Positions 149 through 55,860 of a stretch of DNA of 56,043 nucleotides are shown piece by piece. This DNA is from an uncultured Bacilli bacterium (GTDB taxonomy: Bacteria > Bacillota_I > Bacilli_A > RF39 > UBA660), in the NCBI GenBank assembly GCA_947632545.1, contig CANRPP010000005.1, positions 1 through 56,043 on the forward strand, in the 5' to 3' direction. Position 1 is the first letter of the stretch, and each line of letters opens with the position of its first letter. The position numbers and the translations under genes are program-made. Under the pieces are notes generated by a model, which was given only the letters and a program-made list of their open reading frames with translations, was not told the origin of the DNA and did not search any database.

Positions 149-1042
149 ATGAAAAAATTTATGATGTTAGCGACAATATTAGTTGCAGGATTATTATTTA
201 TACCTAATATTTATGCAGAAAGTGAAATAGAAACCGCCGAAAATTTAAAAACAGCATTAAGTACTGCAGAAAATAATACGGTTACATTAAAAGCAAATAC
301 TACTATTACATTAAAGGCTAGTGATCTTCCAATAACAGTAAATAAGAATGTAACAATAGAAGGTAATGGTGCTACAATTAAAGTTGAAGATGAAAGTAGT
401 GTTGATTTAAAAGGTGATAAATCAATAATTACCGTTGTAGATGGAGGAGATGTTACTATAAATAATCTAACTTTAGAAGGATCTCCAAAATATGGATTAC
501 AAGCTTATAATGGTGGAAAAATTACAATTGATAATGTAACAATTAAAAATTGTAAGTATGGAGCAATATTAGTAAATGGTGGAGATGTAACAGTTAAACA
601 TCTAGCTATGGCTAATAATGGTACTAATGGTGGAAATGGTATTGAAATAGGAAAAGGAGAAAATGTTACTCAAGAGCCAAAAGTTACTTTAGATGGAACT
701 ATTACTTCAGATAATCAAAATGGATATATTACTGTTGCTGAAAATGATCATCTTGATAAATTTACAGTAGAAAGCACAGATACATCAGAAGAAAAACTTC
801 AAATAAAAGATGGTCAGGTAGTTATTACTAATAAAGATGGTAAAATTATAGCAGCATCTAATACCATAAAATCTGGTGTAACACCTCAAGGTGAAGAATA
901 TCAAGAACCAGTTACAATTACTGAACAACCAAAAGAAGAAGCAAATCCTAATACATCTGATATTAACTTATATTTATTATTAAGTATGATTGCAGCAAGT
1001 GGATTAGGAATAGGTTATACAGTAAAAAGAAGATTTAACTAA
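149..1042 (+). CDS. Sortase-anchored parallel beta-helix surface protein
   Basis: Predicted secreted, wall-anchored protein of 297 aa. The start at 149 follows a strong ribosome site (AAAGGAGGG, 134-142); an in-frame ATG at 116 lies upstream of that site and within the promoter region. Residues 1-23 form a signal peptide ending IYA. The body has repeated short beta-strand/turn units rich in N, G, T and V (for example GGDVTINNLTLEG and GGKITIDNVTIKN), typical of a right-handed parallel beta-helix (pectate-lyase-like fold). The C-terminus carries NPNTS (266-270), a hydrophobic stretch and KRRF, a sortase sorting signal of the NPxTS type. No catalytic residues can be assigned, so an adhesin or structural role is as likely as glycan binding. 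Expression probably varies with the G9 promoter. Confidence 0.85.
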   Translation: MKKFMMLATILVAGLLFIPNIYAESEIETAENLKTALSTAENNTVTLKANTTITLKASDLPITVNKNVTIEGNGATIKVEDESSVDLKGDKSIITVVDGGDVTINNLTLEGSPKYGLQAYNGGKITIDNVTIKNCKYGAILVNGGDVTVKHLAMANNGTNGGNGIEIGKGENVTQEPKVTLDGTITSDNQNGYITVAENDHLDKFTVESTDTSEEKLQIKDGQVVITNKDGKIIAASNTIKSGVTPQGEEYQEPVTITEQPKEEANPNTSDINLYLLLSMIAASGLGIGYTVKRRFN

Positions 1043-51427: not shown

Positions 51428-51443
51428 AAGAGGTTTCCCTCTT
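51428..51443 (-). terminator. Terminator of spoIVA (minus strand)
   Basis: AAGAGG / CCTCTT stem with a 4-nt loop; the T run lies on the minus-strand side. Confidence 0.75.
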
Positions 51444-52917
51444 ATATTACTATAGCAATCATATTGTTAGAACCTTTATTAACTACTTTAGTTAGTGTTT
51501 GTTGTAGTTTTAATCTAATATTATCAGGCATTAAATTTATTTTAGACTGAATTCCTTCTTGTACAATATTATCTAAACTTCTACCAAATATTTCACTACT
51601 CCAAATACTTTTTGGATTAGTTTTATAATCTTTCATCAAATAGTCAATTAGTTCTTTACTTTGAACTTCACTACCTATAATTGGTTCAAAAGTAGATTCT
51701 ACATCAACTCTAATCATATGTATAGATGGTGCTATTGCTTTTAATTTAACACCATATCTAGGTCCTTGTTTAACAATTTCTGGAGTATTTAATTTCATAT
51801 CATCAAGTGAAGGTACAGCAACGCCATATCCAGTTTGTTTAACCATTTTTAAAGCATATTTTATTTGGTCATATTCACGTTTTGCAATATTAAAATCTTG
51901 GAATAATGCTAATAAATCTGCTTTATTGTTAACATCAACATCTATTATTTCTGTAAGAGTTTCATTATATAAATTAGGTGGAGCAGTTAAATTAATAGTG
52001 ACTATACCTGTAGATGGGTCAACATCTGCTAAATAGCTTTTTTCAATCATAGGATTATCTAGGAAATGATTTGTAATAGAATCAATATCTCTTAATTTAT
52101 CTACTTCAACTACACTTTCTTTAATAGATTTGATATATTCTTTTTTAATTTTATGATCATGATTTAATATCGCAATCCATTCAGGCATGTTAACTTTAAC
52201 TTCTAAAACAGGGAATTCATATAGTGCTTCTTTTAAGATATTATACATATCTTTTTCACCCATTGCTTCAACACTTATAGGAATAACTGGTACATCATAT
52301 TCTTCTTTTAATGAATTAGCTAGTCTTTCAGTTTCAGGAAGAGTAGGATGTACAGAGTTTAAAATTACAATAAATGGTTTACCAATACTTTTTAACTCAC
52401 TTATGACTCTATTTTCAGCTTCCAAATAATCACTTCTATCAAATTCTCCGATAGAACCATCAGTAGTTACTACTATACCAATAGTAGAATGTTCTTTAAT
52501 AACTTTTTCAGTGCCAACTTCAGCAGCTTCTACAAAAGGTATATCTTCATTGTACCAAGGGGTTTTAACCATTCGTGGTCCATTTTCATCTTCAGCACCT
52601 ACAGCTTTATCAATAACATAACCAACACAATCAATTAATCTAATATTACAACTAAAATCATCAATTCCTATTTTAGCAGCATTATTAGGTACAAATTTAG
52701 GTTCAGTTGTCATAATAGTTTTTCCAGCTGCACTTTGAGGTATTTCATCAAGTGCTCTTTTTCTTTCATATTCATCTTCAATATTAGGAACAATTAAAGT
52801 TTCTACCATTCTTTTTATAAATGTAGATTTACCAGTTCTAACAGCACCAACAACTCCTAGATATATATCACCACCACTACGGGCAGCAATGTTTTTAATA
52901 ATTTCTTGCTTTTCCAT
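51442..52917 (-). CDS. spoIVA: Stage IV sporulation protein A (coat morphogenetic ATPase)
   Basis: 491 aa from ATG at 52917, seven bases after AAAGGAG (an ATG at 52923 is too close). Walker A GAVRTGKST (about 24-32), DEIPQSAAGKTIMTTEPKF, Walker B-like RLIDCVGYVID, VVTTDGSIGEF and NSVHPT are the SpoIVA signatures. The C-terminal region ends GSNNMIAIVI. SpoIVA polymerises with ATP on the forespore outer membrane as the base of the spore coat. A sigma-E promoter is visible upstream. Neighbours spoVIF and der match Bacillus gene order, without gpsA between. Confidence 0.97.
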   Translation of the reverse strand: MEKQEIIKNIAARSGGDIYLGVVGAVRTGKSTFIKRMVETLIVPNIEDEYERKRALDEIPQSAAGKTIMTTEPKFVPNNAAKIGIDDFSCNIRLIDCVGYVIDKAVGAEDENGPRMVKTPWYNEDIPFVEAAEVGTEKVIKEHSTIGIVVTTDGSIGEFDRSDYLEAENRVISELKSIGKPFIVILNSVHPTLPETERLANSLKEEYDVPVIPISVEAMGEKDMYNILKEALYEFPVLEVKVNMPEWIAILNHDHKIKKEYIKSIKESVVEVDKLRDIDSITNHFLDNPMIEKSYLADVDPSTGIVTINLTAPPNLYNETLTEIIDVDVNNKADLLALFQDFNIAKREYDQIKYALKMVKQTGYGVAVPSLDDMKLNTPEIVKQGPRYGVKLKAIAPSIHMIRVDVESTFEPIIGSEVQSKELIDYLMKDYKTNPKSIWSSEIFGRSLDNIVQEGIQSKINLMPDNIRLKLQQTLTKVVNKGSNNMIAIVI

Positions 52918-52940
52918 ATACATTCTCCTTTATTCATTTA

Positions 52941-52977: not shown

Positions 52978-52996
52978 AAGAACTATTTAAGTTCTT
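52978..52996 (-). terminator. Terminator of the spoVIF-type gene (minus strand)
   Basis: AAGAACT / AGTTCTT with a 5-nt loop; seven T follow on the minus strand, immediately before the spoIVA promoter. Confidence 0.82.
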
Positions 52997-53237
52997 AAAA
53001 CATTTTATCTATATCTTTAGGAACATTATCTTTAATAATAGCATTCACAATTTTATCTTCTCTTTCTTTACTAACTTCTTTACCTGTAATTGAAGATATT
53101 TCTTGTACCATATCCCTAAGCACTTTCTCATCTTTCATATTATTTGAATCTTGTAATTTCTTTGCAAGAGACATAATAGTATTTTTATCCACATTAGTTT
53201 TTTTCTCTACTTTTTTAAAAAAGCTATCTCCAAACAT
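52995..53237 (-). CDS. Stage VI sporulation protein F family
   Basis: 80 aa. FFKKVEKKTNVDKNTIMSLA, KKLQDSNNMKDEKVLRDMVQ and ISSITGKEVSKEREDKIVNAI match the small SpoVIF family, whose B. subtilis member is needed for coat assembly and resistance. AGGAGGAGT precedes the ATG. Its place between der and spoIVA is conserved in Bacillus. Upstream, CATATAAT fits a sigma-E or sigma-K -10 element but no good -35 is placed. Confidence 0.85.
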   Translation of the reverse strand: MFGDSFFKKVEKKTNVDKNTIMSLAKKLQDSNNMKDEKVLRDMVQEISSITGKEVSKEREDKIVNAIIKDNVPKDIDKMF

Positions 53238-53307: not shown

Positions 53308-53487
53308 CTTTTTTTCTTTTTTATCTAACTGTTTTTGATATTTTTCACGTTTTTTTGCAATTTCCTGACATTCCCTAGAAAATTGTTCAATAGTAATAAC
53401 CTTTTTATCATATCGATCTTGTAATATTTCTAAAGCTCTATCTAGGCTATCTAATTCAGTTTTTGGATCTTTTGGTTTAAAAAACAT
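53299..53487 (-). CDS. 62-aa charged helical protein co-transcribed with der
   Basis: Two helices with a turn: SLDRALEILQDRYDKKVITIEQFSRECQEIAKKREKYQKQL, resembling the SHOCT-like pattern (a short helix, KKxIT/S, then EFxxxxxxI). No signal peptide. AGGAGTGGTGATT precedes the ATG, which overlaps the der stop by one base, so translation is coupled. Function unknown; B. subtilis also carries small genes next to der. Confidence 0.7.
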   Translation of the reverse strand: MFFKPKDPKTELDSLDRALEILQDRYDKKVITIEQFSRECQEIAKKREKYQKQLDKKEKKMY

Positions 53488-54794
53488 TAATCACCACTCC
53501 TATTCTTAAATTGTAACACAATAGGAGTTCCTTGTAAATCAAAGCTTTCACGTAATTTATTTTCTAGATATCTTTCATATGAAAAATGAACTAATCCCTT
53601 ATTATTAACTCTTAATGTAAATTTAGGGGGTTTAATTCCTGTTTGACTAGAATAATATATCTTTAAACGTTTTCCTTTATATGAAGGTGGTTTATTTAAT
53701 TGATATGCATCTAAAATAACATCATTTAGTACACTAGTTTTTACTTCTCTTTTAATATTTTCTAAAACTTTAATAACTTCAGGCATTAATGTATGAATAC
53801 GTTTTTTAGTAAGTGCAGATAAAAATACTATAGGTGCATATGTTGCAAATTGAAATTCTGCTTTCATAAGTTTAGTAAATTCTGATATAGTAGTATCTTT
53901 AACTAAATCCCATTTATTGACAACAAATATTAAACCTTTACCACGTTCAATGGCATATCCTGCTATATGTTTATCGTGTTCGGTAATACCTTCTTCTGCA
54001 TTTATAACTACTAAACACAAATCACTAGAATCAATAGATCTCATAGAACGAATTAAACTGTATTTTTCAATGGTATCAAAAATTCGACCCTTTTTTCTCA
54101 TACCTGCTGTATCAATTAGTATATATTCTTCACCATGATATTTAAAAACAGAATTAATAGAATCTCTAGTAGTACCAGAAATATCAGATACAACAACGCG
54201 TTCCTCGTTTAATAAGGCATTAGTTAAAGAACTTTTACCAACATTAGGTCTACCAATAATACAAAATTTTAGTCTCGTATCGTTATTTTCTTTATCAATA
54301 GTATTAAAATCTATTGTGATATTATCCATTAATTCACTATAGCCAGTATTATGAATACTACTAATAGGAATATATGTATCAAAGCCTAGTTCATAAAAAT
54401 CATATATATTATTTTGAGCTGATTTAACATCAATTTTATTAATGGCAACAACAACACGTTTTTTACTCTTTCTTAAGATATCTCTAACAACTAAATCATT
54501 ATGAGTAATTCCTTCTTTACCATCAACCATAAATAATACAACATCAGCTTCTTCAATAGCAATTTCTGCTTGTATTTTTATCTCTTCATTAAAAGTTTCT
54601 TTTTCTACATCAATTCCACCAGTATCTATTAAATAAAATCGCTTATTATTATAGATGGCTTCTTGATATAATCTATCTCTAGTAACTCCAGGAGTATCTT
54701 CAACAATAGCAAGTTTTTGACCAATAACCTTATTAAAAAAGGTACTTTTACCAACATTAGGTCTTCCTACTATTGCAACAACAGGTGTAGCCAT
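53487..54794 (-). CDS. der: Ribosome-biogenesis GTPase Der (EngA)
   Basis: 435 aa, two tandem G domains and a KH-like C-terminus. First GTPase: GRPNVGKST (about 9-17), DTPGVTRDR, DTGGID, NKID. Second: GRPNVGKSS (about 181-189), DISGTTRDS, DTAGMRKKG, NKWD. C-terminal KH domain with YYSSQTGIKPPKFTLRVN. Essential for 50S assembly. GGAGGGGATATT precedes the ATG. It is divergent from the surface protein with the second poly-G promoter. Confidence 0.98.
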   Translation of the reverse strand: MATPVVAIVGRPNVGKSTFFNKVIGQKLAIVEDTPGVTRDRLYQEAIYNNKRFYLIDTGGIDVEKETFNEEIKIQAEIAIEEADVVLFMVDGKEGITHNDLVVRDILRKSKKRVVVAINKIDVKSAQNNIYDFYELGFDTYIPISSIHNTGYSELMDNITIDFNTIDKENNDTRLKFCIIGRPNVGKSSLTNALLNEERVVVSDISGTTRDSINSVFKYHGEEYILIDTAGMRKKGRIFDTIEKYSLIRSMRSIDSSDLCLVVINAEEGITEHDKHIAGYAIERGKGLIFVVNKWDLVKDTTISEFTKLMKAEFQFATYAPIVFLSALTKKRIHTLMPEVIKVLENIKREVKTSVLNDVILDAYQLNKPPSYKGKRLKIYYSSQTGIKPPKFTLRVNNKGLVHFSYERYLENKLRESFDLQGTPIVLQFKNRSGD

Positions 54795-54861: not shown

Positions 54862-54891
54862 TTGACAAAACGCTCTGGGGGGGGGTAGAAT
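54862..54891 (+). promoter_or_regulatory. Promoter with G9 tract in the spacer (second putative phase-variable promoter)
   Basis: TTGACA (54862-54867) is followed by a spacer that ends in nine G (54877-54885), then TAGAAT (54886-54891), giving 18 bp spacing. Loss of one G would give 17. Other -10 candidates (TATAGT, TATAAG further on) are too far from this -35. The sequence from the G tract onward (TAG, then TTAT and GTATAA words) resembles the promoter at 94-124. Confidence 0.7.
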
Positions 54892-54924
54892 TATAGTATA
54901 AGATAAAAAAATACGGAGAAAGTT

Positions 54925-55860
54925 ATGAAAAGGATAGTAAAGAAAAATTATAAAATACTAATAGGTATAGTAATAGGAATAATTATATCAACAACAATAG
55001 TATATAGTGCAGAAAATATATTAACAGGAGAAGATATTTCATATGATAATAAAACAAGTGGAGAAGAAACAGTACAAGGTGCGATAGATGAATTATATGA
55101 AAAAGCAAATAAAAGTAAAGCCCCAAAACCAAATAATACAAATATAGTAGCTGTATATTATTATGATGAAACAAAAGGATCAGAAGATTTTTGTGTAACA
55201 GGAGATGAAGAAACCTGTAAAGTAAATACATGTTATTTAAATAAAGCAAAAGATAGTTGCCCATCTGGAACAATAGTAGAATATAAAGTAAATGATAATG
55301 ATACTGTAAGATTTCATGTAATGAAAGATAATGGAAGTAAAATGATATTACAAAGTCAACAAAATACACTAAATAGTATACAGTGGTATACTGAAAATAA
55401 TAATAGTTATGGTCCAACAACAGCATTAAGTGAATTGGAAAAAGCAACAGAAAATTGGGCTAATGTAAATACATTTGATTATTCAATAGGAGATGATAAA
55501 TCAACATTAGGATATTCTGGTTGTAATGGTTCTCAAGAGTGGACAACAACTCCTTATATTTTAGAAAAAAAAGGAATTAAAGCAAGAATGATAACAATGC
55601 AAGAAGTCATTAGTTTTGGATGTAATAATGAAGATAATAATAATATTGTCTCTTGTCCAATATGGATGTACAATTATTTAAAAGATTCAATAAATTTTGG
55701 GGGAACAATAAATGACTCAAATGCATTAGCTTCCTATTGGACTATGTCTACAGCAATGTGGAAAGATATTATGGCTTTTGTGATATATAAAAATACATAT
55801 AGCACTTTGAGTACTAATTTAAAATCAGGAGCCAGAGCAGTAGTAGAAATAAATAAATAA
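54925..55860 (+). CDS. Secreted surface protein, probably membrane-tethered by its N-terminus
   Basis: 311 aa, ATG after ACGGAGAAAG. Basic N-terminus and hydrophobic helix (about 9-28, ending VYSAEN), then a short motif SGEETVQGAIDELYEKANK. The exported domain has several Cys (FCVTGDEETCKVNTCYLNKAKDSC region and later SGCNGS, FGCNNE, SCPIW), suggesting disulfides. Trp-rich blocks include IQWYTENNNSYGP and ENWANVNTFDY. It ends GARAVVEINK. I recall similar multi-copy exported proteins in uncultured gut Firmicutes, of unknown function. It has no sorting signal. Its promoter carries the second G9 tract. Confidence 0.75.
   Translation: MKRIVKKNYKILIGIVIGIIISTTIVYSAENILTGEDISYDNKTSGEETVQGAIDELYEKANKSKAPKPNNTNIVAVYYYDETKGSEDFCVTGDEETCKVNTCYLNKAKDSCPSGTIVEYKVNDNDTVRFHVMKDNGSKMILQSQQNTLNSIQWYTENNNSYGPTTALSELEKATENWANVNTFDYSIGDDKSTLGYSGCNGSQEWTTTPYILEKKGIKARMITMQEVISFGCNNEDNNNIVSCPIWMYNYLKDSINFGGTINDSNALASYWTMSTAMWKDIMAFVIYKNTYSTLSTNLKSGARAVVEINK

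Follow-up and report, generated by a model that had tools for sequence, protein, structure and literature searches.

Poly-G tracts in the promoter spacers of exported-protein genes form a candidate phase-variation set in an uncultured member of the Bacilli

Two poly-G promoters at the ends of the window

The stretch of DNA analysed, referred to as the window, comprises 56,043 nt of contig CANRPP010000005.1 from an uncultured Bacilli bacterium. It carries the genes for SpoIVA (spoIVA, 51442–52920) and SpoVIF (spoVIF, 52995–53234), which place the organism in a spore-gene-bearing lineage. A relative from the same genus, CAOJEH01, is filed as 'uncultured Tenericutes bacterium'; the genome is small and the bacterial group is apparently gut-associated.

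The gene for the GTPase Der/EngA (53487–54794, reverse strand) is a divergent neighbour placed outside the putative switch. On the forward strand a promoter was read with a -35 box TTGACA (54862–54867), an 18-nt spacer (54868–54885) consisting of AAACGCTCT followed by nine G, and a -10 box TAGAAT (54886–54891). The G9 tract, the presumed slippage site, occupies 54877–54885 and was detected in run scans of both the window and the genome. An independent promoter search recovered the same TTGACA/TAGAAT pair with 11 of 12 matches, and all positions agreed with the sequence-only reading, which had placed nine G with 18-bp spacing ahead of an exported protein. By reading, a ribosome-binding site CGGAG was found at 54914–54918, followed by an ATG at 54925 that opens a forward-strand gene (54925–55860) for an exported, Cys-containing protein of 311 aa. 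This protein belongs to family B, with a conserved leader MKxIVKKNYK..., a variable body and the end GARAVVEINK. Pfam, NCBIfam and PDB searches with family B proteins returned no reliable match, and an AlphaFold model of the 54925–55860 product was set aside at a mean pLDDT of 39.

The second tract is located at the opposite end of the window, also on the forward strand. A -35 box TTGACT (94–99) is followed directly by G9 (101–109) and, at a spacer of 19, by a -10 box TATAAT (119–124). The gene behind it (149–1042, forward strand) encodes a secreted right-handed beta-helix protein (PF13229, E=1.4e-9) whose C-terminus, NPNTSD-hydrophobic-KRRFN, resembles a sortase anchor by inspection. A copy of this beta-helix surface protein, 97% identical, is encoded at C21:7139–8029, each copy having its own G9 promoter.

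The two tracts had been described as matching in length and architecture, with both genes encoding secreted products. The common length (G9) and the secretion of both products held, whereas the architecture differed, the run at 101–109 following TTGACT(T) and ending 9 bases before TATAAT. Two layouts are therefore distinguished. In type B (TTGACA-N9-G9/10-TAGAAT, TATATT or TATGAT), the tract adjoins the -10 box. In type A, TTGAC(T/C) is followed almost at once by G9–11 and then by TAGTTATTG-TATAAT, so the tract adjoins the -35 box. Because the tract stands at opposite ends of the spacer and yet the total length is nearly equal, the feature shared by both types is a spacer of changeable length and not a common sequence.

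The poly-G set in the genome and its genes

The window has a G+C content of about 24%. G runs of lengths 1 to 5 were counted 9694, 1714, 124, 31 and 7 times, respectively, lengths 6 to 8 were absent and length 9 was found twice. Runs of at least 7 G were confined to 101–109 and 54877–54885, as had been remarked for runs of this length. Dinucleotide shuffles of the window gave a mean of 0.24 matches versus 6 seen.

The assembly searched comprised 1,045,355 bases in 42 contigs (95% complete). Runs of 8 or more G numbered 23; length 7 was absent, and length 6 occurred four times. Every one of the 23 long runs fell in a -35/-10 spacer, with that at C42:1–8 cut by a contig end. Each of the 22 uncut runs lay inside the spacer of a box pair that agreed with TTGACA/TATAAT at 9 or more of the 12 bases, a score reached by 12% of random placements. 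The poly-G promoter set is genuine and lies well beyond chance expectation. The run at C42:1–8, which stops exactly at the contig end, is what would be expected if the runs were sequencing or assembly artefacts, e.g., two-colour poly-G errors, but random errors should turn up at length 7 and in coding DNA too. As a general explanation the artefact was rejected on the basis of the defined flanks on both sides, the promoter positions and the recurrence in many assemblies and genera, and is now barely credible; exact lengths could still carry errors.

All 19 readable tract genes encoded a strongly hydrophobic N-terminus or export signal, versus 11 of 42 background genes elsewhere in the window (P=2e-8), which makes a strong case for surface targeting. 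The genome-wide set of surface genes under poly-G promoters, proposed initially from the two tracts of the window, was thus recovered. Type A products were secreted and shared a signal peptide; their central parts were diverse (one being the right-handed beta-helix), and most had the end NPNTSDINLYLLLSLIAVSGCGIAYTVKRRFN in common. By inspection this end appears to be laid out like a sortase signal; none of the family models searched scored above its cut-off. Type B products had a conserved membrane leader and variable bodies. The tract was not universal, as a related NPNTSD gene on C13 lacked it.

The spacers of the tract promoters measured 18 (6 cases), 19 (13), 20 (2) or 21 bp (1). The optimal spacer is usually 17 bp long, a length that no tract promoter in the genome, at 18–21 bp, had. 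Ordinary TTGACA promoters in the DNA examined peaked at a spacer of 17 (6 of 20, small numbers). Tract lengths in the genome were 9, 10 and 11, type A having 9–11 and type B 9 or 10. The promoters at C10:33669 (G9) and C14:29882 (G10) differed in tract length with 54 of 54 flanking bases identical; as these are paralogous loci and not alleles, the support they lend to length variation within a population is indirect. A correlation of G length with the rest of the spacer was discarded, since the search pattern limited the spacer to 19 and forced a negative correlation. On C34 (L168, about nt 850–950), the promoter TTGACAAAACGCT-GGGGGTGGGG-TACAAT contained an interrupted run and a spacer of exactly 17, and looks like a natural locked copy. 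By eye, the exported protein behind it resembles the TasA/camelysin type.

Nine of the 23 tracts had a contig end no more than 150 bp away (on C5, C7, C14, C21, C24, C29, C37 and C42), versus 0.28 expected. On C7, C14, C24 and C42 a tract ran into the contig end before any gene, and on C27, C30, C33 and C34 a gene of the same families began at the contig end with its promoter missing, so the numbers of orphan promoters and orphan genes matched at four each. The assembly probably breaks at these ends due to the repeated promoters and leaders. Together with the conserved leaders and differing bodies of family B, these observations would also fit a promoter and leader serving mainly as a recombination module for swapping surface-gene bodies, with the G tract as a by-product or a break-prone hotspot. 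Such an explanation is very unlikely, as short-read assemblers break contigs at repeats anyway, and it accounts neither for the G run lying exactly in the spacer nor for the same geometry with different flanks in other genera. Recombination of this kind may act alongside a switch.

Poly-G promoters among relatives

Related genomes were scanned with the pattern TTGAC-N0-12-G8-NA, with the reversed pattern as a control. Within the family the pattern was present in 84 of 291 genomes, representing 57 of 150 genera, and a draw of 395 genomes from the class gave 52 with the pattern, including families other than that of the window; the reversed pattern gave only a handful of matches. The strict phylum scan covered genomes of the same class only. 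Tract lengths in the relatives ranged from 8 to 14, and the -10 box after a type B tract was often TATAAT itself. Of the relatives' tract genes, 44 of 50 within the family and 9 of 14 in other families encoded export signals. By reading, the relatives' tract genes included those for lipoproteins, pseudopilins and a few enzymes resembling surface-glycan enzymes.

Other arrangements of G runs were also noted. Several runs in the f21 genomes were located in apparent coding DNA, so not every run represents a promoter. In two of these genomes, G598 and G506 (L219 and L239), G10 and G8 were apparently situated within the region coding for a signal peptide, where they would switch the reading frame and not the promoter. 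In G009 (L171, L174, L177, L180, L183 and L186), runs of G8–10 lay between a GTGTGC/GCACAC inverted repeat and the hairpin GGGGTAAATATTTACCCC with a T run. They were placed outside spacers, upstream of exported or pseudopilin-like genes, and possibly act as a variable terminator or attenuator. In G012 (L175, L178, L187, L193, L195, L197 and L199), G8 was located about 14 bases upstream of the -10 box, over the -35 position, before genes for exported proteins. A phage-like contig, IMGVR_UViG_3300010167_000234 (L207), contained TTGACAATA-G11-TATAAT at 2319–2344 before an exported-looking reading frame. Scans of viral contigs for the same promoters and protein, made in search of other strains, found none.

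The genome of one congener, G007, contained 79 G runs. Of the 48 listed with their flanks, about 45 shared TTGCAA-N10-G9-TATAAT, a promoter that recurred at intervals of about 1.1 kb along tandem arrays of family B genes. Its tracts were almost all G9 though the flanks had diverged, and the promoters read in another relative, G057, were all G8. Such uniformity seems to count against switching, as neutral free switching should look more mixed. It would be expected if the poly-G spacer were a fixed architecture of constant length, e.g., a shape element or a regulator-binding element of a co-regulated surface regulon. The mismatch repair gene mutS (mutS1), intact in the genome and in nearly all relatives tested, points the same way, since mismatch repair protects mononucleotide tracts (PMC3639595) and an intact MutS1 would lower slippage at them. 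Moreover, a homopolymer by a promoter need not switch, as the promoter-side T tract of vpma does not (PMC2268961). A fixed element is nevertheless improbable. It does not agree with the length differences between otherwise identical promoters or the range seen in relatives, with the change in the position of the tract, next to the -10 box in one type and next to the -35 box in the other, or with the C34 copy, which has the same kind of spacer without a homopolymer. The nearly single length in G007 fits a fixed architecture, but it would fit equally a switch with the same majority state at every locus.

Proposed promoter switching and its relation to known systems

A poly-G tract in a promoter spacer has a precedent in porA of Neisseria meningitidis, in which the spacer contains 9–11 G and expression varies stepwise with tract length (PMC3639595). 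Both systems have the poly-G in the spacer of a surface-protein promoter. However, porA is one gene of a Gram-negative pathogen, whereas 23 loci in two layouts were found here in one genome of an uncultured, spore-gene-bearing relative of the 'Tenericutes'. The vlp genes of Mycoplasma hyorhinis have a poly-A tract in the promoter and, like maa2 and vmm of mycoplasmas, undergo phase variation by slippage in the spacer (PMC2268961, PMC10502178). The likeness to vlp lies in a surface family of many genes, each having a homopolymer in its promoter spacer; vlp genes switch singly, as the genes described here presumably do. The differences are poly-A, lipoproteins and a wall-less bacterium in the case of vlp, in contrast to poly-G, more genes, and sortase-like ends or a membrane leader in the present set. 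In Mycoplasma gallisepticum, GAA repeats are located upstream of the vlhA promoters (PMC6258824). This surface-gene family is also large, comparable in size to the set of G007, and has a repeat at every promoter. The vlhA repeat is a trinucleotide upstream of the promoter, an arrangement that does not apply to the tracts described here, whose mononucleotide G lies inside the spacer, so the switching device would be a different one. A homopolymer between the -35 and -10 boxes was found for 22 of 22 testable tracts, a surface or secreted product downstream for all 19 readable genes, each with an export signal, and a length difference for the paralogous pair on C10 and C14. Judged by anatomy, the tracts would belong to the porA/vlp kind.

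Taken together, the 23 tracts are probably phase-variable promoters of surface-protein genes operating by slipped-strand mispairing, and we infer that switching itself is likely. The G tracts would serve as variable spacers in sigma-70-type promoters. Replication slippage would add or remove a G and so lengthen or shorten the spacer, which measures 18–21 bp in the assembly, and the changed spacing would raise or lower transcription of that single gene. This requires slippage at a useful rate in the population and expression set by spacer length, both of which we presume. As about 23 genes would switch independently, the set of surface proteins would differ from cell to cell, and the benefit could be evasion of the immune system or phages, or diversity of binding. 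A more far-reaching proposal, possible but rather doubtful, is that the whole uncultured, spore-gene-bearing family places its surface proteome under poly-G promoters that switch independently of one another, with as many as about 79 in a genome of 1.3 Mb. Their lengths would be held at a common, mostly weak setting despite intact mismatch repair, with few surface proteins made per cell.

The literature searched yielded no description of such a set from this lineage. As the search was limited to open-licence papers, the novelty, which would lie in the scale, the lineage and the double architecture, is provisional. If the proposed switching is true, the set would be a very dense one of promoter-spacer phase variation for the genome size, in a large uncultured group, and phase variation of this type would extend outside the pathogens in which it has been studied. 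Since the tracts are easily found and counted in metagenomic reads, switching and selection within the host would then be measurable without culture. Many uncharacterised surface proteins are named in this way as candidates for contact with the host, phages or neighbours, and stochastic switching of the surface would be a routine strategy of commensals.
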